49,846 bases of DNA from an uncultured Oscillospiraceae bacterium (GTDB taxonomy: Bacteria > Bacillota > Clostridia > Oscillospirales > Oscillospiraceae), in NCBI GenBank assembly GCA_949948775.1, contig CATLHC010000012.1:1-49846 (forward strand), written 5' to 3'. This document shows, in pieces, positions 6,510 through 30,459 of this stretch; positions within the stretch are counted from its first letter, which is position 1, and each line of letters starts with the position of its first letter. A model generated the notes under the pieces. The model saw nothing but the letters and a program-made list of their open reading frames with translations, was not told the origin of the DNA and ran no database searches. Made by a program: the position numbers and the translations under genes.

Positions 6510-7700
<1,191 letters not shown>

Positions 7701-7713
7701 GGGGGTGTCCACC

Positions 7714-8838
7714 ATGAAAATGACTGGTATTATCTTCTCCGATCTGTACTCCGACGCGCTCAACTCCTTCACCCAGGACCGCAACATGGCCGCCATCCCC
7801 TTCGGCGGGCGCTACCGCCTGGTGGACTTCGCCCTGTCCAACATGGTCAACTCCGGCATCCTCAACGTGGGCGTGCTGGTCAAGCAGCACTACCACTCCC
7901 TGATGGACCATCTGAGCAACAGCCAGGAGTGGGATCTGAACCGCAAGATCGGTGGGCTCCAGCTCCTGCCCCCCTTCGCCACCCAGGACGGCAACACCAG
8001 CGGCAGCCGGGGCAAGCTGGACGAGCTGCGCAACGCCCTGGACTATCTGGAGGCCATCGCCTCCACCCCCTATGTTCTGCTGGCCGACGCCTACGTGCTG
8101 TGCAACATCGACTACCGCATCGCCCTGGAGGACCACATTGCCAGCGGCTGCGACATCACCATGCTGGCCACCAAGGAGAAGGAGGACTCCCAGATCAACT
8201 GCGCCTCCGTGATGAGGGCGGACGCCAGCCACCGGGTCACCGCCTACGCCCTGGACTGCCCCGCCAAGGCCGGGGACTACGCCAGCATGGGCCACATGAT
8301 CATCTCCCGGGAGTTCCTCATCAACGTCATCCGGGACTACACCTCCCGGGGTATCTACGACTTCCTGCGGGATTTCGTTCAGCACGAGTTCAACCGGGGC
8401 CGCCTGACCATCAATCTCCACGAGGTGGACACCACCGTTCTGCGCATCCGCAATGTGGAGGAGTACTTCCAGAGCAGTCTGGCCATTCTGGGTGACGACG
8501 TATCCGCCGCCCTGTTCCGGGGGGACCGGCCCATCCACACCCGCGTCACCGACGAGGTCCCCGCCTACTACGGCCTGGACTGCCAGGTGGACTGCTGCGT
8601 CATCGCCGACGGCTGCTTTGTGGACGGCAGCGTGGAACACAGTGTGCTGTCCCGGAGCGTGAAGATCGGCAAGGGCGCCAAGGTGAAAAACTGCGTCATC
8701 ATGCAGGGCAGCGTGGTGGGTGAGAACGCCTGTCTGGAAAATGTTATTGTAGATAAGTGGGTCACCATCAGCGACGGCGCCCAGCTCAAGGGGCTGTATT
8801 CCAATCCCGTTGTCATCCGCAAAGGAGTAACCGTATGA
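7714..8838 (+). CDS. glgD: glucose-1-phosphate adenylyltransferase, GlgD subunit
   Basis: A 374-residue GlgC paralogue. It keeps the fold (AAIPFGGRYRLVDFALSN, then C-terminal beta-helix repeats), but its first loop reads FSDLYSDALNSF in place of the GGxGxRL nucleotide loop. In Firmicutes GlgD is known as a partner that raises GlgC activity and is weakly active or inactive alone; loss of the loop fits that. ATG 7714 is chosen because it follows GGGGGTG by the usual distance; the frame is open further upstream only as a shadow of glgC. Its TGA overlaps the glgA start in ATGA (8835-8838), implying translational coupling. Confidence 0.95.
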   Translation: MKMTGIIFSDLYSDALNSFTQDRNMAAIPFGGRYRLVDFALSNMVNSGILNVGVLVKQHYHSLMDHLSNSQEWDLNRKIGGLQLLPPFATQDGNTSGSRGKLDELRNALDYLEAIASTPYVLLADAYVLCNIDYRIALEDHIASGCDITMLATKEKEDSQINCASVMRADASHRVTAYALDCPAKAGDYASMGHMIISREFLINVIRDYTSRGIYDFLRDFVQHEFNRGRLTINLHEVDTTVLRIRNVEEYFQSSLAILGDDVSAALFRGDRPIHTRVTDEVPAYYGLDCQVDCCVIADGCFVDGSVEHSVLSRSVKIGKGAKVKNCVIMQGSVVGENACLENVIVDKWVTISDGAQLKGLYSNPVVIRKGVTV

Positions 8839-10485: not shown

Positions 10486-12882
10486 ATGGATCAGAAACAA
10501 ATCATCAAACAGTTGGATGAAATGCTGTTAGTGCGCTATGGCTGTTCCACTGAGAACGCCTCCCCGCAGCAGGTCTACCGCGCCCTGTGCTATGTGGTCA
10601 ACAATGCGCTGGCCACCAAGAGCGCCGAGTTCTATCAGAAGAACAAGGGTAAGCAGGTGTACTACATGTCCATGGAATTCCTGGTGGGCACCTCCCTGCG
10701 CAACAATCTGTATAATCTGGGTCTGGAAGATGTGTTTACGAAAGCCCTGGCCAAGTGCGGCGTGGACATCCACGACCTGTACGAGATGGAGCCCGATGCG
10801 GGCCTGGGCAACGGCGGTCTGGGCCGTCTGGCTTCCTGTTACATGGACTCCGCCGCCAGCCTGGATCTGCCCATGACGGGCTACTCCATCCGGTATGAGT
10901 TCGGCATCTTCAAGCAGAAAATTGTGGACGGCTGGCAGGTGGAATTCCCTGACGACTGGCTGAGCATGGGCGACGTGTGGCTGGTCCCCCACGAGAGCGA
11001 GGCGGTGGAGGTCCGCTTCGGCGGCAGCGTCCACGGCTGGGAGGACGGCGGCAAGTACCGGGTAAAGCATGTGGACTTCCAGTCCGTCATGGCGGTGCCC
11101 AACGACATGTATATCTCCGGCTACAACAGCAAGGCGGTCAACCCCCTGGTGCTGTGGTCCGCCAAGTCCCCCAACAGCTTCGACATGTCCGCCTTCTCAC
11201 GGGGCGACTACGCCAAGGCCCTGGAGGGGGACACCATGGCCGAGGTCATCTCCAAGGTGCTCTACCCCGCCGACGACCACGTCGAGGGCAAGCGGCTGCG
11301 CCTGCGTCAGCAGTATCTGCTGGTGTCCGCCTCGGTGCAGACCATTCTCAAGAAGCACCTGCGGGTCAACAAGACCCTGGACAATCTGCCCGACAAGGTG
11401 TCCATCCACATCAACGACACCCATCCCGCCCTGTGTGTGCCCGAGCTGATGCGCCTGCTGGTGGATGAGCACAACTACCCCTGGGACAAGGCGTGGGACA
11501 TCACCTGCCGCACCCTCAGCTACACCAACCACACCGTCATGAGCGAGGCGCTGGAGCGCTGGAACGTGGATCTGTTCCAGCAGCTGCTGCCCCGCGTGTA
11601 CCAGATTGTGCAGGAGATCGACCGCCGCCTGCGCGTGGACCTGCACGGCTACTACGGCAACGACACGGGCAAAATTGAGTATATGGCCGTCATCAGCGGC
11701 AGAGAGATCCGCATGGCCAACCTGTGTTTGGCCTGCTGCCACAAGGTCAACGGCGTGTCCAAGCTCCACACCGAAATCTTGGAGAACAGCATCTTCCGGG
11801 ACTACTATCAGATGGAGCCCGACCACTTCTGCAACGTCACCAACGGCATCGCCTACCGCCGCTGGCTGTGCCAGTCCAACCCGAAGCTGACCGCTCTGCT
11901 GAAGGACCTGATCGGCGACGGCTTTGTCTCCGACTCCACGCAGCTGGAAAAGCTGCTGAAGTACAAGGACGACGCCGGGGTGCTGCAGAAGCTTCAGGAC
12001 ATCAAGCTGGACAACAAAAAGCGCCTGGCCGACCTGATCCTCAAGCGCAACGGCATCGTAGTGGACCCCAGCTCCCTGTTCGACGTGCAGATCAAGCGTC
12101 TCCACGAGTACAAGCGCCAGCTGCTCAATGTGCTCCAGATTCTTCATATGTATCTGGAGATTAAGGCCAACCCCGGCGCCCCCTTCCAGCCCCGCACCTT
12201 CATTTTCGCCGCCAAGGCGTCCGCAGGCTATATCATGGCCAAGCAGATCATCCAGCTCATCGTGTCCGTGTCCAGCATGATCAACCACGACCCGGACGTC
12301 CAGGATAAGCTGAAGGTGGTCTTCATGGAGGACTACAACGTCTCCCTGGCCGAGATCATTATCCCCGCCGCCGAGATCTCCGAGCAGATCTCCATCGCCG
12401 GCAAGGAGGCCAGCGGCACCGGCAACATGAAGCTGATGATCAACGGCGCCGTAACCTTGGGTACGCTGGACGGCGCCAATGTGGAGATTCACGAGCAGGT
12501 GGGCGACGACAACATCGTCCTCTTCGGCCTTAAAACCCCGGAGGTCAACGAGCTGTGGCAGCGGGGCTACAATCCCCTGGACTACGTGCGCAGCGACCCG
12601 GAGCTGAAGGCCGTCATGGACATGCTCATGGGCGGCATCGCCGGGATGCACTTCGACGACGTTGTGCGCTCCCTGACCACCAACCACAAGGGTCCCGCCG
12701 ACCCCTATATGTGCCTGGCCGATTTCCACGACTACGTCCGGGCCCAGCAGGATGTGTCCGCCATCTACGGCGACAAGCCCCGCTTCAACAAGATGTCCTT
12801 GGTGAATATCGCCAAGGCGGGCTTCTTCTCCGCCGACCGGGCCGTGGAGGAGTACGCCAAAAATATCTGGTGCCTCAAGTAA
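10486..12882 (+). CDS. glgP: glycogen/starch phosphorylase
   Basis: Degrades alpha-1,4-glucan with phosphate to glucose 1-phosphate, using pyridoxal phosphate. The 798 residues match the family. Visible signatures are GLGNGGLGRLASCYMDS, the IHINDTHPAL region, RLHEYKRQLLN and the cofactor motif EASGTGNMK, where Lys649 is the expected Schiff-base residue. It follows the synthesis genes after a separately promoted, structured leader, so breakdown can be controlled apart from synthesis. The gene ends 53 bases before glk; a small CCGCCC/GGGCGG hairpin at 12892-12907 lies between them. Confidence 0.97.
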   Translation: MDQKQIIKQLDEMLLVRYGCSTENASPQQVYRALCYVVNNALATKSAEFYQKNKGKQVYYMSMEFLVGTSLRNNLYNLGLEDVFTKALAKCGVDIHDLYEMEPDAGLGNGGLGRLASCYMDSAASLDLPMTGYSIRYEFGIFKQKIVDGWQVEFPDDWLSMGDVWLVPHESEAVEVRFGGSVHGWEDGGKYRVKHVDFQSVMAVPNDMYISGYNSKAVNPLVLWSAKSPNSFDMSAFSRGDYAKALEGDTMAEVISKVLYPADDHVEGKRLRLRQQYLLVSASVQTILKKHLRVNKTLDNLPDKVSIHINDTHPALCVPELMRLLVDEHNYPWDKAWDITCRTLSYTNHTVMSEALERWNVDLFQQLLPRVYQIVQEIDRRLRVDLHGYYGNDTGKIEYMAVISGREIRMANLCLACCHKVNGVSKLHTEILENSIFRDYYQMEPDHFCNVTNGIAYRRWLCQSNPKLTALLKDLIGDGFVSDSTQLEKLLKYKDDAGVLQKLQDIKLDNKKRLADLILKRNGIVVDPSSLFDVQIKRLHEYKRQLLNVLQILHMYLEIKANPGAPFQPRTFIFAAKASAGYIMAKQIIQLIVSVSSMINHDPDVQDKLKVVFMEDYNVSLAEIIIPAAEISEQISIAGKEASGTGNMKLMINGAVTLGTLDGANVEIHEQVGDDNIVLFGLKTPEVNELWQRGYNPLDYVRSDPELKAVMDMLMGGIAGMHFDDVVRSLTTNHKGPADPYMCLADFHDYVRAQQDVSAIYGDKPRFNKMSLVNIAKAGFFSADRAVEEYAKNIWCLK

Positions 12883-21460: not shown

Positions 21461-22321
21461 CTAAGTAGAAAGCCCGCGCAGCGGACATTCCGATAAAGAC
21501 ACCCGGTCCACCAGGGCGCGGAGCCCATTGTCCCGGAGATAGTCCTGGAAGATGGACAGGGACTGGGTGGAATCCGGCCCGATGATGATCTCCGCCACCA
21601 GATCCTCCAGCCCGATGCCGATCTCCCGGCACATGGACTTCAAGTCCAAGGGATAGTATTTCTTGATCCGTTCTCTGGTGACATGGTAGCGGGGCCGCAC
21701 ATCAAATTCCTCCTTCTCAAAGGGGGACACCACCAGGCGCATCTCGTACTCCGACGCGAAGGATGGGTGCTTATAGGACACCGAGCAGGCCCAGGCCTCC
21801 CGCATGGCCTCCTTCACCTCCGGCTCCTCCGGGGACAGCGCGGCCGCGCTCCGCGCCAGGGCGCAGAACCGCTCCACCATGGGATGGTCCGCCATATTGT
21901 CCCGGTAAAAAACCAGCTGGAGGGACAGCGCCCCCCGGGCGAGCCTTTGCAGATACTCCCGCCGCAGGGCGATGCACACCCCCCGCCCCCGGTTGCCGTA
22001 CCGCTCCCACTGGGCCGCGTCGTCCCGGTGGAAGGAGAAGCAGGCGGCAAAAGCGGAGTACTCCTTTTTCAGCTCCTCCCGGAACAGGGTCCGGACCTGC
22101 CGGGCCTGCTCCACGCCGCCCTCCCGCTCCAGCCGGTCCACGATGGCGGCGCCCAGCCGGGTCATAAAGTGTTTCATTTCCGCCGAATCGTTCATGCGCA
22201 GCACGTTGTTTACCCGTAGCTCGGCGCAGCGCAGAATGCCGTCCAGGGCCTGAAAATCGGTGTAATGATAGAGAATTTTCCTGCTCAGATGGTCCATTCC
22301 GCCGTTTCGCTCTGCATTCAT
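21461..22321 (-). CDS. DUF2971 family protein
   Basis: 286 residues. The N-terminal ILYHYTDFQALDGIL, then RMNDSAEM, CFSFHRDDAAQWERYG and a C-terminal YKHPSFASEYEMRLV match the DUF2971 pattern. That family has no defined biochemical activity and is often found near defence or phage-related genes. ATG 22321 overlaps the stop of the VWA gene as ATGA, so it is translated with it as the last gene of the MoxR-VWA cluster. The connection to that cluster is from position only. Confidence 0.82.
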   Translation of the reverse strand: MNAERNGGMDHLSRKILYHYTDFQALDGILRCAELRVNNVLRMNDSAEMKHFMTRLGAAIVDRLEREGGVEQARQVRTLFREELKKEYSAFAACFSFHRDDAAQWERYGNRGRGVCIALRREYLQRLARGALSLQLVFYRDNMADHPMVERFCALARSAAALSPEEPEVKEAMREAWACSVSYKHPSFASEYEMRLVVSPFEKEEFDVRPRYHVTRERIKKYYPLDLKSMCREIGIGLEDLVAEIIIGPDSTQSLSIFQDYLRDNGLRALVDRVSLSECPLRGLST

Positions 22322-23493
22322 TTGCTCTCCCCCTTTACCAGCCCTTCCAGGCTCTGCCCCTTCAGGCACCGCTCCAGCAGCTCGGGCAGGCGCTCCGGCG
22401 CGCAGGCGAAGCAGGGCACGTCCAGGGCGGCGATGCGCCGGGCGGTCTCAGGGTCGTAGAAGGGCTTGCCCCCGTCCGCGATGGCCAGCAGCACCACCAC
22501 CGTCACCCCGGAGCTTTTCAGCTCCTCCACCCGGCGCAGCAGGGCCGCCCGGTTGCCCCCCTCGCACAAATCGGAGATGAGGAAGAACAGGGTCTTGGCC
22601 GGGGCCTCGACGAGCCCCTGGCAGTAGGCGATGGACTTGGCGATGTCGGTGCCGCCCCCCATCTGGAAGCCGAAGAGCAGGTCCACCGGGTCGGCGCACA
22701 AAGGGGTGAGGTCCATGATCTGGGTGTCGAAGGCCACCACGCTGGTCTTGACGGCGGACATGGAGGCCAGCACGCAGGCCATCACCGAGGAGTAGAGGAT
22801 GGACTGCCCCATGGAGCCGCTCTGGTCGATGTCCAGGATGATGTGCCAGCGGTTAATCCTGCTGGAGCGGTCGAAGAACCACACCCGCTCGGGGATGACG
22901 GTTTTCAACTGCGGGTCATAATTTTTCAGATTTCGTCGGATAGTATAGGGAAAGTCGATGGCGGAGGCGGATGGCAGCGGGGAGTGGGCCCGGCGGTTCA
23001 GCGCCGCCGTCACCGCCCGGCGCACGTCGTTCTCCAGCAGCTTGTTCAGCTCGTCCACGATTTTGCGGATGAACCTCCGGGCGGACTCCTTGGACTTTTT
23101 GGGGATCTGGTCCTTGAGCATCAGCAGGGTGGAGGCCAGGTTCAAATCGGGCTCCAGCCCCTCCAGCAGCTCGGGCTCCAGCAGCAGCTGCTTGAGGCCC
23201 TTGCGCTCGATGGCATCGTTTTGCACCACCGCCACCATCTCCGGGTCGAACAGGGTGCGCAGGTCCCCCAGCCATTTGGAGATCACCGGGGAGGGCGGCC
23301 CCTTCCCCGCCCCGCCGCCGGGGCCAGGCCCGCCGCCGAAGCTCTCCCCCGGCCCGCCGTAGATGGCCCCCAGGGCGCCGTCCATCAGCAGCTCCTCCTG
23401 GGACAGCCCGCCGCCCCCCATGGCTTGAAAGGAGTCCTCCGTCTCCGCGCCCAAGATCAGCCGCCAGCGGGAAAACTGTGTTGCCTGTGCCAT
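22318..23493 (-). CDS. VWA domain protein of a MoxR-VWA system
   Basis: 391 residues. The first ~200 form a helical region with a Gly/Pro-rich segment at 46-67. The VWA domain follows, with the metal-binding DxSxS at 223-227 (DIDQSGSMG), the downstream Thr in GGGTDIAKS and a later ISDLCEGG. This layout is like the CoxE/VWA partners of MoxR ATPases, which bind targets through the metal site and are thought to present them to the AAA+ ring. An AGGAGG-type site precedes ATG 23493. It is separated from the upstream DUF5682 gene by a palindromic element at 23519-23688; the other genes of the cluster are packed within 16 bases. Confidence 0.9.
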   Translation of the reverse strand: MAQATQFSRWRLILGAETEDSFQAMGGGGLSQEELLMDGALGAIYGGPGESFGGGPGPGGGAGKGPPSPVISKWLGDLRTLFDPEMVAVVQNDAIERKGLKQLLLEPELLEGLEPDLNLASTLLMLKDQIPKKSKESARRFIRKIVDELNKLLENDVRRAVTAALNRRAHSPLPSASAIDFPYTIRRNLKNYDPQLKTVIPERVWFFDRSSRINRWHIILDIDQSGSMGQSILYSSVMACVLASMSAVKTSVVAFDTQIMDLTPLCADPVDLLFGFQMGGGTDIAKSIAYCQGLVEAPAKTLFFLISDLCEGGNRAALLRRVEELKSSGVTVVVLLAIADGGKPFYDPETARRIAALDVPCFACAPERLPELLERCLKGQSLEGLVKGESK

Positions 23494-23518
23494 AAGATAC
23501 CTCCAGTCTGAGGTTGTT

Positions 23519-23688
23519 CATTCTTTTTCTTGAAAGAAAAAGAATCAAAAAGAACTTTTAGGCCGCCACAAACGTGGTGAGTTTCTGAAACGTTTCCGCC
23601 CGGCAGCCAACCAAAACGGCGCGAAACGCAGTTTCGCGTATAAAAGTTTTTCTTTTGATTCTTTTCTTTTTTCAAAAAGAAAAGAATG
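23519..23688. mobile_element. MITE-like element with long inverted ends (R2)
   Basis: About 170 bases. The left end (23519-23560) begins CATTCTTTTTCTTG and ends AGAACTTTTA; the right end (23640-23688), read on the other strand, begins CATTCTTTTCTTTTTG and ends AAAACTTTTA, giving imperfect inverted ends of 42-49 bases. Each end is itself a hairpin (left: TTCTTTTTCTT with AAGAAAAAGAA). The centre has CGCGAAAC/GTTTCGCG and other small stems. It has no coding capacity. It ends four bases before the DUF5682 stop codon and starts 25 bases from the VWA start, so it sits inside the operon. A partial copy follows pgi. Confidence 0.65.
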
Positions 23689-23691
23689 CCC

Positions 23692-25983
23692 TTAAATGTC
23701 GTCAAAGTCAAACTCCTCCAGGCTGTCCAGCACCGCCTGCTCCGCCTCGGTGACGTCGTTCATCAGCACCTCCGCCGCCTGCTGGGCGTTTACGCCCCAG
23801 ATCTCGCCCAAATTCTCGGCAATATCGTTCTTTTCCGACGGCGAGAAGTCGGCGAAGGCCCGGCGCAGGAACACCAGCGCCCGGCGGAAGCTCTCGTCGT
23901 CCAGGCCGCTGAGGTAGTCGTCCAGCTGCCGCCACAGGGACAGCCGGGCGATGAGGGCGTAGCGGTTTTTCCCCGCCAGCCCCTCGAACCACCCCGCCCC
24001 CAAATCGGCGGGTACGCCGGGGGACAGCCGCCGGGCCACCTCCCGGGACAGCAGCCCTTCGTCCGCGCGGCCCCGCTCCAGCAGGATGGCCATGGCGAAG
24101 CCGGAGCACCGGGTGTTCAAATCGTCCCGATCGGAGATGTCCGCCAGCAGATCCAGCCAGCGCCCCTCCTCCAGAAAATCGTGGCTGAGCTGGAGGGTGT
24201 TGAGCTGGTCCATGGCCTGGGTCACCGCCGGGGCGGCCTTGGCGTCGCAGGCACAGGCCCCCGCCAGAGTCAGGCACGAGCGCAGATAGAGCTGCTTGAT
24301 GAGCGGCACCACCGGCGCCGGGTCAAACCGCCGCAGATCGCCGTAGCGCACCACCAGACTGAGCCGAGCGGTCGTCTCCGCCACCTCCGAGATAGCGGCG
24401 GCGTCCACGCTCAGCCCCTGCAGCACGGACAGGGCGTGGGCGGCCGCGGCGGGCATGCCGCACAAAAAGGCGTCCTGGAAAATGGCGGCGGCCTCAGCGA
24501 TGGAGGCGCTGCCGTCCGCCCGCTCCTTGAGAGCAAAGGCAGCGGCCCCCTCCACGGTGTCCCCCATGAGGGCGGACTCCGCCACCTCAATCTCCGCCTC
24601 CGGGGTCCAGCGCAGCTCCCAGTATTCCCCCCAGTTGGCCCCCTCCTGCCGGGAGGGGAGCAGATGGGCGAAGTGCACCCCCAGCACCCGCAGGCGGTGA
24701 AGGAAGAAGGACCGGCGCAAATCGCCCAGGGCGGCGTTCTCCGACTTCACGTTCAGCTTTTCCCGCAAATCCAAATCCAGCCGCTGGAGTTCGGCGGCGC
24801 GGAATTTCTCCAACCGCAGCTCCTTGAGCTGGCGGTAAAAGTCCTCCTGCACCGAGGTCCGGGCCACCCCCTCCGGGAGAAAGCCGATTTTTGTGCCGAT
24901 TTCCGTATCCGCTGCCGCGACCGCCAGCTCAGAGAAGTTCCCGTGGCCCATGGTGGTGACGCTGGCGTCCCGCAGGTCGGACAGGGTGGGATATTTGCTC
25001 CCCCGCATGGCCGCCAGGGCGTCGGCCAGCCGCACCGCCTCGATGACCTCAGCGGAGGACACCAGGTTGCCCGCCTTCCGGTGGGCGGCGGCGAGATGGG
25101 TGAGGTAGCGGTACGCCGTCTCTCCCGGCCCGCCCCCGTTGAGGGCCTCCCACAGCAGCTCAAAGTAGGCGGGGGCCTTGTTGCCCGCGCCGTAGCCGGA
25201 GCGGGAGGACAGGCGGTAATAGGAATAGGGCATCAGGGTCGCGCAGCAGTCCGCGCGAGGCAGGGCCTTTTCCTCCTGATCGGTCATGGGCGTGTTTTCC
25301 TCCAGCCCTGCCACGTGGAAGGAGCCACACACGCAGAAGATCTTTTCCGGGGGAATGCCCGAGGCTACGGCCTGGGCCATCACCCGCTTCATGTACGCCT
25401 CCCGCACCACCGTCTCCGCCATGTCCCGGCGGCTGTCCACGGACGCGGCGCGCAGCTGCCGCCCGAAGGTGTTGTTCACCGCCTGGAAGTCCTCCCCCTC
25501 CAACTGCTCGAAGGTGCGCTCCCAGAAGGTGTCGTGGTCCTCGCCGGTCAGCGTCTCCAGCCGCTTGTAGACGCTCTCGGTGGTGGCGGGTCCCTCCGCC
25601 TCCTCTGTCCCGGCCTCCTCGTTCTCCCCGCTCTCCCCCCGGACCGGCTCAAACCAGGGCTTCAGCGCCAGGAACACCGACGACGGCAGATCCATGAACC
25701 GGCACTCCACCCCGTGCTCATGGGCCCACAAAATGGCCTGTGTCTCCGGGGAGTAGCGGGCAAAGGGCCACAAAATGGTCCTCACCGGCGGTTCCTTGGT
25801 ATAGGCCAGGATGGCGGCGGGAAACTGGGTGTCCGGGTGGCACAGCCACTTGATCTGACCGCTGAGGTCGCTGGGGCCTTCCACCAGCACCAGCTCCGGC
25901 CTGGCCGCGTCCAGCGCACCCCGCAGGTGGTACGCCGCCGCCGGGGACAGGTGGCGCACACCGAACAGTACCGGATGGCCCAT
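23692..25983 (-). CDS. DUF5682 family protein, TraB/EreA-like N-terminal domain
   Basis: 763 residues. The N-terminus (LFGVRHLSP with His11, then LVLVEGP with Glu35) and a later REAYMKRVM (194-202) followed by CVCGSFHVAGL (Gly220, His223) reproduce the order of conserved elements in TraB/PrgY/GumN and EreA/ChaN-like proteins, some of which are metal-dependent hydrolases. An acidic linker at 117-135 interrupts this part. The remainder is a long helical region without motifs I can name. DUF5682 genes are regularly found with MoxR, VWA and SWIM genes. The ATG shares a base with the upstream stop (TGATG); a GTG one codon earlier is possible. Confidence 0.85.
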   Translation of the reverse strand: MGHPVLFGVRHLSPAAAYHLRGALDAARPELVLVEGPSDLSGQIKWLCHPDTQFPAAILAYTKEPPVRTILWPFARYSPETQAILWAHEHGVECRFMDLPSSVFLALKPWFEPVRGESGENEEAGTEEAEGPATTESVYKRLETLTGEDHDTFWERTFEQLEGEDFQAVNNTFGRQLRAASVDSRRDMAETVVREAYMKRVMAQAVASGIPPEKIFCVCGSFHVAGLEENTPMTDQEEKALPRADCCATLMPYSYYRLSSRSGYGAGNKAPAYFELLWEALNGGGPGETAYRYLTHLAAAHRKAGNLVSSAEVIEAVRLADALAAMRGSKYPTLSDLRDASVTTMGHGNFSELAVAAADTEIGTKIGFLPEGVARTSVQEDFYRQLKELRLEKFRAAELQRLDLDLREKLNVKSENAALGDLRRSFFLHRLRVLGVHFAHLLPSRQEGANWGEYWELRWTPEAEIEVAESALMGDTVEGAAAFALKERADGSASIAEAAAIFQDAFLCGMPAAAAHALSVLQGLSVDAAAISEVAETTARLSLVVRYGDLRRFDPAPVVPLIKQLYLRSCLTLAGACACDAKAAPAVTQAMDQLNTLQLSHDFLEEGRWLDLLADISDRDDLNTRCSGFAMAILLERGRADEGLLSREVARRLSPGVPADLGAGWFEGLAGKNRYALIARLSLWRQLDDYLSGLDDESFRRALVFLRRAFADFSPSEKNDIAENLGEIWGVNAQQAAEVLMNDVTEAEQAVLDSLEEFDFDDI

Positions 25984-27074
25984 CACCCGTTCAGCTCCCG
26001 GCAGGCGCGGTACAGTGGGAGCCACTCATGGCCCCGCTTCTTCATCACGTTTTCCAGGTACTCCTTCCAGGTCACCTTGTCGCTGTCCTCGTCCTTCACC
26101 ACCGCCCCCTGGAGGGCGGCGGCCAGGTCCCCATCTGAGATGCGCCCGTCTCCGAAGCTCCCGGCCAGGGCCATGGAGTTGGCCAGCAGGGAGATGGCCT
26201 CGGCGGTGGACAGCACGCCGGAGGTGGTTTTCAGTTTCTGCTTGCCGTCCAGGGTGGCGCCGGAGCGCAGCTCCCGGAAAATGGTGACCACCTTCTCCAC
26301 CGTGTCCTCGTCAGGCTGGCGGGCGTTCAGGTCCAGGCCGCTGGACAGCTGGGCCACCCGGGTGCGCACGATATCCATTTCTGTCGCCATATCGGCGGGG
26401 GTGGGCAGCACCACGATGTTGAACCGCCGCTTCAGGGCCGCCGACATGTCGTTGACGCCCTTGTCCCTGGTGTTGGCGGTGGCGATGACGGAAAAGCCCT
26501 TGGCGGCGGGCACTTCCAGCCCCAGCTCGGGCACGCTGAGCCGCTTTTCCGACAGGATGGAGATGAGCGCGTCCTGCACCTCGCTGGCACAGCGGGAAAT
26601 CTCCTCCACCCGGGCGATGGAACCTGTCTCCATGGCCCGGTAGACCGGGCTTTTCACCATGGCCTGGGGACAGGGTCCCTTGGCGATGAGCATGGCGTAG
26701 TTCCAGGAGTAGCGGATGTGCTCCTCGGTGGTGCCCGCCGTGCCCTGGACCACCTTGGTGGAGTCCCCATTGACGGCGGCGGCCAGGTGTTCGGACAGCC
26801 AGGATTTTGCCGTGCCCGGCTCGCCGATGAGCAGCAACGCCCGGTCCGTCACCAGGGTGGCGATGGCGATCTCCACCAGCCGCTTGTTGCCCATATACTT
26901 GGGGGTGATCTCCACGCCCTTGACCTTTGTGTTCCCGGTGAGGTAGGTGAGCACCGACCGGGGGGACATCCGCCAGCCGGTGGGGACGGTTTCCGTCTCC
27001 GCCGAGATGAGGGCATCCAGCTCGGTTTGATAAAGCTCCTCCGCCGGGAGGCGCTGTACGTTTTTGTCTGCCAT
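25983..27074 (-). CDS. MoxR-family AAA+ ATPase
   Basis: 363 residues. Walker A is GEPGTAKS (84-91); Walker B appears as RVEEIS with Glu157-Glu158; sensor 1 is Asn201 in ATANTRD; the arginine finger is in ALKRRFN (216-217). MoxR ATPases usually work with a VWA protein as a chaperone or remodelling pair for cofactor insertion or conflict proteins. ATG 27074 is chosen because GGAGGAATG precedes it and the protein then starts at family length; the frame extends upstream only through the preceding gene. It is 16 bases after the HEAT-like gene and overlaps the DUF5682 start, indicating cotranslation. Confidence 0.92.
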   Translation of the reverse strand: MADKNVQRLPAEELYQTELDALISAETETVPTGWRMSPRSVLTYLTGNTKVKGVEITPKYMGNKRLVEIAIATLVTDRALLLIGEPGTAKSWLSEHLAAAVNGDSTKVVQGTAGTTEEHIRYSWNYAMLIAKGPCPQAMVKSPVYRAMETGSIARVEEISRCASEVQDALISILSEKRLSVPELGLEVPAAKGFSVIATANTRDKGVNDMSAALKRRFNIVVLPTPADMATEMDIVRTRVAQLSSGLDLNARQPDEDTVEKVVTIFRELRSGATLDGKQKLKTTSGVLSTAEAISLLANSMALAGSFGDGRISDGDLAAALQGAVVKDEDSDKVTWKEYLENVMKKRGHEWLPLYRACRELNG

Positions 27075-27090
27075 ATCACATTCCTCCAGT

Positions 27091-28995
27091 TCAACCCATA
27101 TTCCGGACCGTTTCAAAGGAAGGCACCGCTTTCCCCGCCTCCAACGCCGCGATGATATGGGGGTATGCCTTTCTGACCAAGCCCTGGTTCCCCGGCTGGT
27201 ACGCCTTGACCACAAACAGCTCCTTCGCCATCTGGACCACCTGGGCGGGCGGCAGGCGCTCCTGGGCCTGTGCCAGCAGGTCCAGCACATGGGACAGGTA
27301 GATCGTATTGCTGTGCTTCTGCATCGCGGGGCCCAGTACGCCCACAGGGTCGCCCCCCAGCCGAAAAATATCGCGGCAATAGTTGTACATACAGCAGCCC
27401 GCCGCCACCTGTTCCCGCAGGTGGGCGACCACGAGGCGGCGGTTTTCCTCATCGCTGGGGTCCAGCAGGCACATCAGAATCTTGTCATACTCCTCGATAT
27501 TCCCGCCGTAGCCGGTGGACGTTCTTTGCCCCGTGGTTTTCCACACGGCATGGGTGAGCCGCTTCACCCACCGTCCGTCCAGGGGCTGGGCGGCGGGCCA
27601 GGTGCCGTCAACCCGGTAAACTCCAGTGGTTTCGTCCCGCGTTAACCGCCCCAGTCCTTTGAGAACGGCGTTATGGAACGCCTTTTTCTGCTCCCCGCCC
27701 AGCAGGGGCTTGATGGTGAGCACATAGGGAGAAAAGGTATCGTACACCTCCGCCGCCGAGCGGGTCATCAGCGCCGCCACCACCGCGTGAGACAGATAGC
27801 GGGTCTGGTTCCGATGCTTTTCCCACAGCTCCAGGCACAGCGCGCAAAGTGGTCCCGGCCCCGCCAGACACAGGCTCTCCAGCAGCAGGGCCGTCAGCTC
27901 GGTGCCAAACCCAATGCGCTGTTCCTTTTCTCCCCGCAGATGGTCGATGTCCGCCAGCCTGGCGTCTGTCCAGCGCCAGAAATCCAGCATGGAGGGGGAG
28001 GATTTGCCCAAAGTCGCGGAAAACCACTGGCGAAGCTCGATCACCGCCGGATTGCTCAGGGACTCTTTCCGCGCCAGTATCTCCTCCATCCTGTCCCACA
28101 GCCTCCGGGCCACCAGATCGGAGGCCCAATCCGTCCGGGAATCCCCCAGGAAGCGGATGCTGTCGCCGTTTTTTTCCAGCTCCGCCTCCCAGAAATCCCG
28201 TACCGCCTCCCCGTCTTGCAGGGCCAGCCCCGCCAGGGCGGCCTCCCGGTTCTTGCCCCGCTCGGCCTTGGCCAGGTCCAGAAGAAGGCCGGCGTTCCCG
28301 CTGTCCCCGCCCAGGGCGGTGATGACGGCGGCGCGCACGTCCTTTTTCGCCTGGGGCAGCACCTCCCGCAGCCAGGGGGCGGCGTTCTCCCCCTCAATGA
28401 CGGCGACGACCTCCACCCGCCGGGCCATCTCCTTTTTCCCTGCGGGATCAAAGCCCTTTTTCAGCGTTGGCACAACGGAGGGCCCCAGCCTTTGCAACAG
28501 CTTGGCGTTCAGCTCCGCGATTTCTCCGTAGCTGTCCCCCAGCCCCGCCACCACAGCAGGCAGCACCCGGTAATCCTCAAAAAATTCGGGGTGGTTCTCC
28601 CAGGCGGACTTGATGGTCTCCATCCGCCCGCCGCCGGTGGTGGTCAAGGCGGTGAGCAGGGGCTGAATCTGCCCATAGGAGATGGGGTAATACCGCCCGC
28701 CGCCGGTGGGCAAGGGTTCCAGCTCCCCTTCTACCTCGGTCTTCGCCTGGGTGTAGGCCACCGCGTCCACCAGCGCCAACACGTCCAGCAGCAGCCCTGG
28801 GCGCTGCTCCGGCGGCGCGGCCAGCAGCTTGGTCAGCCCCGCGTCTATCTTGGCGAACACTGGGCTGGCCGCGGCCAGGGGCTTCAACCCCTCCACCGCC
28901 CGCTGGAGCCGGAAGTCCTCCCCCAGCAGAGATACGCCCGCGATAGCGGCATATTCCAGCCGCTCCTTCACGTCATAAAGAGGCTGCAAGTTCAC
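27091..28995 (-). CDS. HEAT-repeat-like helical protein of the MoxR-VWA cluster
   Basis: 634 residues, almost entirely helical by composition. Residues ~150-330 show HEAT-like repeats with alternating leucine and alanine (for example VPTLKKGFDPAGKKEM, APWLREVLPQAKKDVRAAV and LLLDLAKAERGKNREAALAG). No catalytic motif is recognised. The start codon is GTG 28995, supported by GAGGAGGTG upstream and a 12-base gap to the SWIM gene. In related clusters the gene between SWIM and MoxR is a large helical protein annotated as a domain of unknown function; a scaffold or target-binding role is my inference. Confidence 0.7.
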   Translation of the reverse strand: MNLQPLYDVKERLEYAAIAGVSLLGEDFRLQRAVEGLKPLAAASPVFAKIDAGLTKLLAAPPEQRPGLLLDVLALVDAVAYTQAKTEVEGELEPLPTGGGRYYPISYGQIQPLLTALTTTGGGRMETIKSAWENHPEFFEDYRVLPAVVAGLGDSYGEIAELNAKLLQRLGPSVVPTLKKGFDPAGKKEMARRVEVVAVIEGENAAPWLREVLPQAKKDVRAAVITALGGDSGNAGLLLDLAKAERGKNREAALAGLALQDGEAVRDFWEAELEKNGDSIRFLGDSRTDWASDLVARRLWDRMEEILARKESLSNPAVIELRQWFSATLGKSSPSMLDFWRWTDARLADIDHLRGEKEQRIGFGTELTALLLESLCLAGPGPLCALCLELWEKHRNQTRYLSHAVVAALMTRSAAEVYDTFSPYVLTIKPLLGGEQKKAFHNAVLKGLGRLTRDETTGVYRVDGTWPAAQPLDGRWVKRLTHAVWKTTGQRTSTGYGGNIEEYDKILMCLLDPSDEENRRLVVAHLREQVAAGCCMYNYCRDIFRLGGDPVGVLGPAMQKHSNTIYLSHVLDLLAQAQERLPPAQVVQMAKELFVVKAYQPGNQGLVRKAYPHIIAALEAGKAVPSFETVRNMG

Positions 28996-29007
28996 AAAAA
29001 CACCTCC

Positions 29008-30459
29008 TCAATACTGGAGCCGGATGATCTCCGACCGCGTCACCACGCTATAGGGGTGGAGGCACAGGGCCCTGTCCCGCCCGTCGTAAAACATCAGCCC
29101 AAACAGGGCGCTTTCCGCCGGAATTTCCTTCGGCAGCATGGACAGGCGCTCCACACAGGCGTGGTCCGCGCCGTCCTCTGGGCGGCTGCGCAAAAGGATG
29201 CGGGCCTCTTTGGGGTCCTCCAGCACAAATTCCTCCCCGATTTTGCCCAGTCTGCCGATGGGCGCCAGCACCGCCAAGAATTTAGGCGCCAGGGTGTTCT
29301 TGATCTTCCCTTTCACCAGCTTCACCGCCGCCGCCAGATCAGGCTGGGCCAGGGCGGGCAGGGCAGCCTGCTCCTGGGCCGTCAGGGACCGGGCGGACGC
29401 GCTGTCCCAGCGCACCCGGCGGTCGCCCTCGCCGGGGTAGATGTACAGGGCGGGGACCTCCAGCAGCCCAAACCGGCTGTCGTCCCCCTTCACGTATTTC
29501 AGCGCCTTCACCGGCCGCAAGTTCAGCGTCTGCCACAGCTCACCGGTGTCCGCGTCCATCCACCAGCCCCGCTCCACATACTCCTTTTTCGCCTCGTCAA
29601 AGGACACATCAAAAGACAGCTGGACCAGCCTGGCGTTTTCCTTGAACGACCCGATGGCCTTCAAATCCTCCAGCTTCCACACACCTCCCAGGGCTTCAAA
29701 CAGGGCGGAGTCCTCGGCGGAGAAGTTCCCCGCCTCCAGCCTTTCCGACAGGAACGCCCTCCCCTTCTTGATGGTGGAGCGCAGGGCCACCAGCAGCCGC
29801 AGGGCCTCGGCGTAGGCCGCGTCCGCCTGAGCCGGGTCCTTCTGCACCCTGCGCACCGTCAGGGCGATGCGGGTGAAGGCCGTCTGGGGTCCGGTGAGGT
29901 AACAGCCGCCCAGGTCCTTGGCCAGCTTGTCGAAGGTCTGGGCGGAGCTTCCCGCCAGCGTCCCCAGGCCGGAGGTCAGCAGGTCGTCCACCATTTTCTC
30001 CGCCATGTCCAGGCCCTCCAGCTGCTTGGCCAGCTTTTTCTTCCGGGCGGCGGCATTGGGCTTTTTTGGCGCGGCGGGCTTTTCCGGCCCATCGGCGGCA
30101 GCCTCCTTTTTCGCTGTCCGCGCCGCCTGCTTGGCCCGCTTCTCGGCAATGTCCTGGGGGATGTCCGCCGTCTCAAAGGGCTTTGCGCCCAAAATCTCAA
30201 ACATCAGCCCCAGGGCGTGCTTACAGGGAAACTGTCTGCTGGGGCAGGAGCAGCGGCAGGTGGGCGTGTCCCTGTTCGTAAAATCAATGGACACACGATA
30301 GGGATTTTTCCCGCTGCCCGCGCACTCGGCCCAGTACAGGGTGTCGTCGGCGGCCCTGCGGTGGGCGGAAAAGCTGCCCTTTTTCGACAGCTTACGCCCG
30401 TTCTCCGCCGCCGCAGGGTTGGGGGCCTGGAGGAGAATGAATTGCTCGGTCAGTTCCAT
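29008..30459 (-). CDS. SWIM zinc-finger protein
   Basis: 483 residues. The SWIM motif is visible as CxCx8CxH with Cys68, Cys70, Cys79 and His81 (CRCSCPSRQFPCKH). A Lys/Ala-rich linker follows (residues ~95-130), then a long helical and beta region with no motif I can name. SWIM fingers bind nucleic acid or protein. It is the first gene of the six-gene minus-strand cluster; AAGGAG precedes its ATG. A terminator for ktrA (30494-30530) lies just upstream and only a weak promoter-like pair (TTGGAG, 18 bases, TAATAT) overlaps it, so transcription may depend partly on read-through from ktrBA. Confidence 0.87.
   Translation of the reverse strand: MELTEQFILLQAPNPAAAENGRKLSKKGSFSAHRRAADDTLYWAECAGSGKNPYRVSIDFTNRDTPTCRCSCPSRQFPCKHALGLMFEILGAKPFETADIPQDIAEKRAKQAARTAKKEAAADGPEKPAAPKKPNAAARKKKLAKQLEGLDMAEKMVDDLLTSGLGTLAGSSAQTFDKLAKDLGGCYLTGPQTAFTRIALTVRRVQKDPAQADAAYAEALRLLVALRSTIKKGRAFLSERLEAGNFSAEDSALFEALGGVWKLEDLKAIGSFKENARLVQLSFDVSFDEAKKEYVERGWWMDADTGELWQTLNLRPVKALKYVKGDDSRFGLLEVPALYIYPGEGDRRVRWDSASARSLTAQEQAALPALAQPDLAAAVKLVKGKIKNTLAPKFLAVLAPIGRLGKIGEEFVLEDPKEARILLRSRPEDGADHACVERLSMLPKEIPAESALFGLMFYDGRDRALCLHPYSVVTRSEIIRLQY

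Follow-up and report, generated by a model that had tools for sequence, protein, structure and literature searches.

What does a MoxR-type AAA+ ATPase act on, together with its VWA partner, and what tells it when to act? The question is raised by a gene cluster in a 49,846-nucleotide stretch of DNA (hereafter the window; contig CATLHC010000012.1 of assembly GCA_949948775.1, from an uncultured Oscillospiraceae bacterium). Six open genes were found there, all on the minus strand and just where an earlier reading of the letters alone (the sequence-only reading) had placed them; in gene order they encode a SWIM zinc-finger protein, a HEAT-like protein, MoxR, a DUF5682 protein, a VWA protein and a DUF2971 protein (Table 1). 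MoxR, DUF5682, VWA and SWIM stand together on one strand as in the yehLMPQ module of Escherichia coli, and the set is already known by name as the YehL-type MoxR module. The sequence-only reading had called the system undescribed: this does not hold for the name, the YehL subfamily of MoxR ATPases appearing in print (PMC3893208), but it stands for function, no functional study of the gene set, the E. coli YehL branch included, having been found in the literature searched, which was thin on subscription journals. Judged by comparative sequence analysis, the five genes from SWIM to VWA may constitute one ATP-driven machine with a hydrolase as its output and a variable HEAT recognition protein as its input, a reading to which a probability of roughly 0.4 is assigned.

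The five-gene unit and its edges

An alignment of MoxR was scanned against named species genomes and the best 80 of at least 566 confirmed relatives were kept; they come from Clostridia and from Paenibacillus, Cohnella, Treponema, a Desulfovibrio and a verrucomicrobial genome. Gene counts refer to the 45 loci that extend 6.5 kb or more in each direction from MoxR (35 of the 80 were dropped) and, the 80 being best matches, describe this MoxR branch rather than MoxR genes at large. All five genes are present in 43 of the 45, and the exact order SWIM–HEAT–MoxR–DUF5682–VWA in 36; six further loci hold an extra HEAT match (in L053 merely a short fragment), and in one HEAT lies ahead of SWIM. The two exceptions are L112 from Rhodopirellula, with MoxR, DUF5682 and VWA, and L048, where only MoxR and DUF5682 of the five occur over about 10 kb on each side and the module is perhaps decaying. 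The Desulfovibrio and verrucomicrobial loci, too short on one side to be among the 45, hold all five genes. The partnership of a MoxR–VWA machine with SWIM, HEAT-like and DUF5682 proteins proposed by the sequence-only reading is borne out by these counts. The gene order recurs in other genomes, and within this branch HEAT is retained together with its neighbours, so that neither point speaks against a single system. MoxR and VWA retain their motifs for binding nucleotide and metal: Walker A (GxPGTAK) is present in 98 of 98 MoxR proteins, and the metal ion-dependent adhesion site (MIDAS; DxSGSM) in 89 of 89 VWA proteins. Of 79 SWIM proteins, 78 carry C-x-C-x6-C-x-H. The window MoxR is 38% identical to E. 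coli YehL and has operon partners in common with yehLMPQ.

The edges of the unit are seen in its closest relatives, L043 and L044. The DNA that these loci have in common with the window is 84–88% identical; one of its edges coincides with the SWIM start (30460 or 30458), and the other falls some 20 bases short of the VWA stop (22338 or 22337). A search by blastn at E 1e-3 found no match outside the SWIM–VWA block in either locus, which leaves DUF2971 outside. Since the shared DNA is confined to this block, the module lies in different surroundings in near relatives. DUF2971 occurs in 0 of the 45 well-covered relatives, and tblastn at E 1e-5 against 98 loci gave no match to it. SWIM, HEAT, MoxR, DUF5682 and VWA thus form a co-conserved unit of which DUF2971 is not part. 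The sequence-only reading had seen in DUF2971 a possible added effector and had proposed to look for its recurrence. Such a six-gene system could draw on the overlap (ATGA) of the DUF2971 start with the VWA stop and on weak PADLOC matches of DUF2971 to PDC-S31 (best E 6.4e-4); given the lack of recurrence, the end of the shared DNA before this gene and the presence of unrelated extra genes at differing places in other loci, it is highly improbable, and DUF2971 as a constant part is largely refuted.

The junctions, in gene order, are 12 bp, 16 bp, a TGATG overlap, 198 bp and the ATGA overlap. The close spacing described earlier therefore stands for all except the 198-bp DUF5682–VWA gap, the sole wide junction of the cluster. 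This gap is an insertion, because the matching blocks flanking its position in L043 are only 9 bases apart and because the stretch is a dispersed genomic repeat, with palindromic ends and 45 matches in its own genome including itself, most of them partial. The repeat is missing at the corresponding place in both L043 and L044 and is accidental to the module.

Occurrence of the module is patchy within the family: DUF5682 scores above the Pfam cut-off in 11 of 200 genomes of the family and in 8 of 398 genomes of a phylum-wide draw (own genome included in both), and in the family scan two other genomes of the same genus are without it. In an empty-site comparison with two same-genus genomes, the TrkA-like flanking protein was only 40–47% identical and the exonuclease-like flank was not found.

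Constant and variable halves of the HEAT protein

The label HEAT-like, given from sequence, is right but weak in this protein: the window protein alone has no Pfam match at E 0.01 (HEAT_2, E 0.015), whereas, at a threshold of E 10, 63 of the 71 proteins of the family have a HEAT_2 entry (best E 2.5e-11) and the family profile matches designed alphaRep HEAT repeats at profile positions ~143–280 (best E 1e-16). Tandem HEAT repeats are accordingly predicted at the level of the family.

Conservation along this protein is uneven. Between the window and L043, MoxR is 97% identical, VWA 89%, DUF5682 and SWIM 88% each, and HEAT residues 1–150 89%, as against 38% for HEAT residues 290–460 and 32% for 460–634; between the window and L044, the corresponding two HEAT segments are 88% and 36% identical. 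At the DNA level, the hypervariable block yields one 90-base match (72%) between the window and L043, while the flanking DNA is 84–87% identical. In 150-base steps, L043 and L044 are 83–95% identical in SWIM, 91–95% in the first half of HEAT and 91–97% in MoxR, as against 54–69% through the HEAT block, preceded by one step at 75%. The same holds for 85 pairs of loci with MoxR at least 90% alike (pairs at least 99.5% alike in MoxR were excluded, as was L051, which duplicates L030): mean identity is 0.93 for MoxR, 0.87 for VWA, 0.81 for DUF5682 and 0.77 for SWIM, and 0.72, 0.63, 0.48 and 0.47 for the successive quarters of HEAT. In 66 of these pairs the C-terminal half trails even the least conserved of the remaining four genes by more than 0.2. 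Among 96 pairs with a core identity of at least 0.80, the N-terminal half of HEAT and SWIM never fall below 0.5, whereas the C-terminal half does so in at least 75. For 517 pairs, drawn from 59 loci that have single-copy genes of nearly full length, rank correlation with the identity of the core is 0.91 for SWIM, 0.84 for the N-terminal and 0.56 for the C-terminal half of HEAT. Tandem full-length HEAT copies within a locus repeat the pattern: in 12 of 13 pairs, similarity drops by 0.3 or more from the first quarter to the last (0.77 for the first and 0.26 for the last quarter in L050). Three tandem HEAT genes in one operon are found in L094 (3151–9818) and in L050 (4257–9979); the genome of the window has a single HEAT gene of this family.

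The ratio of nonsynonymous to synonymous divergence (dN/dS) is 0.05–0.19 in the 11 pairs whose C-terminal halves align well, so this half is a selected region rather than a decaying one. For the lineage of the window, its history can be followed by phylogeny. The clade of the window, L043 and L044 is recovered with support of 100/100 in the core tree and of 98/92 in the tree of HEAT residues 1–200; HEAT residues 285–470 reject it (p = 0.00027 in the approximately unbiased test), and there L043 groups with L025, L050, L029 and L032 at 100/99. The clade tested was picked after the pairwise identities had been viewed, though it is also the clade of the core tree. Synonymous divergence (dS) in the HEAT block is 0.98 between the window and L043 and 0.84 between L043 and L044, compared with 0.21–0.54 in the other four genes, and is thus raised as replacement by a foreign block would do; between the window and L044, where only part of the block differs, it is 0.56 and not clearly raised. 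These values, and the dN/dS of about 0.6 found for the block in the window–L043 and L043–L044 pairs, are rough, the block being hard to align. On these sequence comparisons, one exchange of the HEAT block between lineages, with the rest of the operon not exchanged, is well supported.

Diversification of one component has a precedent in MoxR–VWA systems acted upon by diversity-generating retroelements (DGRs), whose hypervariable protein has been proposed as a sensor (PMC10907252). These systems resemble the window in joining a hypervariable putative sensor to MoxR and VWA; they vary a C-type lectin domain, whereas the window varies half of a HEAT protein. Diversification by a DGR was considered and set aside, no RVT_1 reverse transcriptase match being found in the window's own genome (89% complete). 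The literature searched contained no account of the changing HEAT half, and a hypervariable, exchangeable C-terminal half appears to be new.

The hydrolase-like domain of DUF5682

Searched by sequence against solved structures, DUF5682 gave 0 matches at E 1. Pfam scans of 63 members, YehM among them, listed only three other families in more than two proteins: TraB/PrgY/GumN (5 of 63, best 0.013), AAA_lid_2 (5 of 63) and ChaN (4 of 63, best 0.025), the last of which Pfam places in the Tiki superfamily, to which TraB belongs as well. In a profile comparison with hhalign, residues 1–245 aligned with 26 TraB proteins over 195 columns (Prob 95.5, P 1.4e-8), whereas four controls (the C-terminal part of DUF5682, HEAT, SWIM and reversed TraB) gave Prob 0.1–1.7 (P 0.03 for reversed TraB). 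The sequence-only reading had already called this domain TraB-like from the letters, a call that the comparison supports. The alignment brings the two GxxH motifs into register, along with the glutamate of EGP and the arginine that precedes the last helix. All 63 of 63 DUF5682 proteins have H11, E35, R194, E195 and H223 without exception, the histidines lying in G-x-R-H and G-x-x-H motifs; the surroundings of the key residues vary, the GxRHxSP pattern being present in 86 of 92 proteins and the Glu pattern in 87 of 92. H11, E35 and H223 align with the conserved His, Glu and His of the TraB family, and E195 stands opposite an Asp. A 2His/2Glu motif is described for the superfamily in a paper on another of its members (PMC6254334), and E195 would be the second Glu of this set. 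Taken together, profile and motif evidence places the N-terminal domain of DUF5682 in the TraB/Tiki hydrolase superfamily as a predicted member. No such placement was found in the literature searched, and it appears to be new. If it is correct, the module gains a testable enzyme with four residues to mutate.

Partner proteins, possible mechanism and competing explanations

MoxR, DUF5682 and VWA are common to three architectures: I, with HEAT; II, with DUF5691; and III, of the E. coli type. Architecture II (SWIM–DUF5691–MoxR–DUF5682–VWA) is found on plasmids of Deinococcus, Rhizobium and Methylosinus, the VWA of the last being split into separate open pieces. These clusters and that of Hymenobacter agree with the window in order, in neighbours and in a clearly homologous SWIM protein (hhalign Prob 99.9), and differ in carrying DUF5691 instead of the HEAT gene. 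In Hymenobacter the two first proteins are fused: a 1009-aa protein has DUF5691 at residues 499–1000 and, in front of it, a SWIM region recognized by the family profile (E 7.6e-33) and below the Pfam SWIM cut-off. A small gene lacking a Pfam match lies between MoxR and DUF5682 in L124 from Deinococcus (6756–6992) and in L127 from Hymenobacter (7362–7973). Architecture III combines in one operon the same four families as the window, YehL (MoxR), YehM (DUF5682), YehP (VWA) and YehQ (SWIM), in a different gene order; no HEAT gene of this family was found there, DUF4132 (YehI) lying upstream instead, and YehQ is related to the SWIM protein of the window only weakly (hhalign Prob 38). Six loci of the window's own phylum likewise have MoxR–DUF5682–VWA with a YehI-like and a weakly YehQ-like gene. 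A Streptomyces plasmid carries DUF4132, MoxR, a gene with a sub-threshold SWIM match and, as a single protein of 1257 aa (L126, 7947–11717), a fusion of DUF5682 (E 9e-203) with VWA_CoxE (E 2e-64).

Beside the MoxR core, a large protein of repeat type may thus be constant in presence but not in family. Profile comparison aligns HEAT with DUF4132 along 76 columns that consist of HEAT repeats (Prob 70, P 4e-5; reversed control 0.2), which may be generic repeat similarity. Homology between HEAT and DUF5691 is weak (profile Prob 2–3; the DUF5691 model is listed for 3 of 71 HEAT members, best E 2.9e-4), and DUF5691 as the counterpart of HEAT rests more on position than on sequence.

The HEAT protein is read here as the putative specificity subunit of a hydrolase controlled by MoxR and VWA. 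A division into a docking part and a ligand-binding part fits the constant first and the changing second half, and on the plainest reading HEAT would determine the timing or the target of the machine's action. The HEAT N-terminus would dock on the common machine, perhaps with the SWIM protein, given the Hymenobacter fusion of SWIM with DUF5691, the protein that stands in the position of HEAT in other clusters. A changing ligand would be bound by the variable C-terminus, whereupon the MoxR hexamer, acting through VWA, might remodel DUF5682 and thereby activate the hydrolase domain, perhaps through the seating of a metal, like NorQ–NorD with nitric oxide reductase; the hydrolase could then cleave a protein or a small molecule. 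That MoxR and VWA act on DUF5682 is suggested because it is the sole enzyme-like partner in all three architectures and because of the Streptomyces fusion, which is the strongest individual clue that DUF5682 is what VWA works on. The exchangeable block is then the place to look for what the machine recognizes: proteins of phages or competitors would make the module a new kind of bacterial immunity, whereas proteins of the cell would make it a chaperone with an unusual evolving set of clients.

Several observations weigh against this reading. HEAT residues 470 to the end do not reject the clade of the window, L043 and L044 (p = 0.066); only 3 of 4019 triples are incongruent at the threshold, all involving L043. 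Good support for exchange is thus limited to one lineage. Rapid evolution by itself could account for much of the remaining variation in HEAT and, with so few incongruent triples, the two are indistinguishable in most pairs. One pair of tandem HEAT copies in L094 differs far less than the others (0.87 in the first and 0.74 in the last quarter). Comparison of a few DUF4132 and DUF5691 pairs, and of six Rhizobium plasmid records with the whole cluster (79–100%), showed no block exchange, and a recognition role may be confined to the HEAT branch; DUF5691 is the least conserved gene (0.34) between Rhizobium and Methylosinus. At least one enzyme of the Tiki superfamily is described as metal-independent (PMC6254334), which weakens the metal-seating step. 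PADLOC 2.0 gave weak matches only for the module genes, the best in the region of the SWIM finger (E 1.3e-4, 18.7 bits). Finally, yehLMPQ is present in 5162 of 5426 complete E. coli genomes (at least 80% of the query), and is thus core, unlike a typical accessory defence system.

Some of these points favour a housekeeping maturation chaperone, in which MoxR and VWA would insert metal into, or fold, a dedicated enzyme (DUF5682 or an outside client), like NorQD or RavA–ViaA, with HEAT as a client adaptor varied at its C-terminus because clients vary. NorQ–NorD, CoxD–CoxE and RavA–ViaA share with the window a MoxR ATPase and a VWA partner and differ in their partner genes; their clients are respiratory, metal-cluster or decarboxylase complexes (PMC7159879, PMC3893208, PMC13036017). 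Known MoxR–VWA pairs are described as remodelling a client and in such maturation roles, NorQD being proposed to insert iron by twisting its VWA partner (PMC13036017, PMC3893208). The DUF5682–VWA fusion fits a chaperone equally well, and no Pfam match to an effector domain (TIR, peptidase, CHAT and the like) was found in the six window proteins at E 0.01. A single fixed client would hardly lead one to expect the exchange of a HEAT half between lineages or tandem copies whose ends diverge. Patchy occurrence also counts against such a chaperone, which is rated as possible though doubtful. The status of the module in E. coli leans towards a ligand from the own cell; patchy occurrence and exchange lean towards a foreign one.

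A conflict role is plausible in the light of these sequence patterns. Such a system would act by protein recognition, MoxR and VWA gating a Tiki-type hydrolase whose target is set by the exchangeable HEAT half, much as by the recognition domains of restriction enzymes; HEAT halves would move between lineages and be stocked as tandem copies in some genomes, and the system would range from Clostridia as far as spirochaetes, E. coli YehLMPQ being a cousin of fixed specificity. For the third components of ternary systems, VMAP, iSTAND and beta-propeller, Pfam holds models, and none of these matched any of the six window proteins at E 0.01; the bpMoxR model touches the window MoxR (29.3 bits over 55 residues). 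vWA–MoxR ternary conflict systems are described as a MoxR–VWA pair with a further component (PMC7159879). As a full account of the locus, an immune system of this kind is considered rather unlikely.

A further candidate is a stress or DNA-damage machine, in which SWIM and the WGR and DUF4132 partners of the sister branch would sense damaged DNA or stalled complexes for the ATPase to clear. The yehF–yehI region of E. coli presumably corresponds to MolR. The latter, with its WGR domain, is mentioned in connection with the LexA regulon, and depletion of DdrO is accompanied by a strong rise of a DUF4132 operon of Deinococcus and of a WGR gene (PMC8533742). The window proteins scanned have no DUF4132 or WGR match in Pfam, and sites resembling the Firmicute LexA box number 50 in the window versus 68 expected, no more than chance, with no site in the stretch from the SWIM start to the next gene upstream. 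Such a machine, which would also leave the exchanged HEAT block unexplained, is improbable. Whatever the role of the proposed recognition-controlled hydrolase, MoxR–VWA modules are widespread, and the YehL branch has been little studied though core in E. coli.

Table 1. Features of the cluster in the window and, in the last rows, extra genes in the operons of relatives (coordinates of the respective locus)
Feature	Position	Strand	Description
SWIM zinc-finger protein	29008–30459	−	483 aa; Pfam SWIM above cut-off
SWIM protein, motif C-x-C-x6-C-x-H	residues 70–81
SWIM protein, C-terminal region			conserved; no Pfam model
HEAT-repeat protein	27091–28995	−	634 aa; GTG start
HEAT protein, layout			~1–280 conserved N-terminus and HEAT repeats; C-terminal half hypervariable; proposed specificity subunit
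Hypervariable block of HEAT gene	27091–28174	−	about residues 274–634
MoxR-type AAA+ ATPase, probably YehL kind	25983–27074	−	363 aa; Pfam AAA_5 above cut-off
DUF5682 protein (YehM family)	23692–25983	−	763 aa; Pfam DUF5682 above cut-off
DUF5682, N-terminal domain	~245 residues		TraB/Tiki-superfamily hydrolase domain (predicted); His11, Glu35, Glu195, His223
Dispersed repeat element	23497–23690	.	inserted between DUF5682 and VWA
VWA (CoxE-like) protein	22318–23493	−	391 aa; DxSGS MIDAS intact; Pfam VWA_CoxE above cut-off
DUF2971 gene	21461–22321	−	Pfam above cut-off; neighbour, non-member of module
Extra gene(s), L061	8246–9970
Extra gene(s), L069	2792–7697
Extra gene(s), L088	3568–4483
Extra gene(s), L097	3484–6836
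Extra gene(s), L098	4315–5529
Extra gene(s), L105	9253–10248
Extra gene(s), L108	10835–13103
Extra gene(s), L117	4761–6098

The five-gene operon of some relatives contains extra genes, often between DUF5682 and VWA, which by eye include an AAA ATPase, a toxin–antitoxin-like pair, an RtcB-like protein and a restriction-subunit-like protein. A recurrent cargo belonging to the module was considered and rejected, such genes being similar (blastp E 1e-4) only between L060 and L061 and between L095 and L096. Just past DUF2971 in the window, a short GTG frame on the minus strand (21441–21358) has a signal-peptide-like start and a stop after 27 codons, and may be the start of a broken gene. On the conjugative IncF plasmid p11A_p2 of E. 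coli (L129), the stretch yehI–yehLMPQ–yehR–btsSR, chromosomal in K-12, is present. A full-length DUF5682 match, 51% identical, occurs at 10530–12770 of MT835988.1, a 14.2-kb record labelled Bacteriophage sp. that may be either a mislabelled bacterial contig or a phage-borne module.

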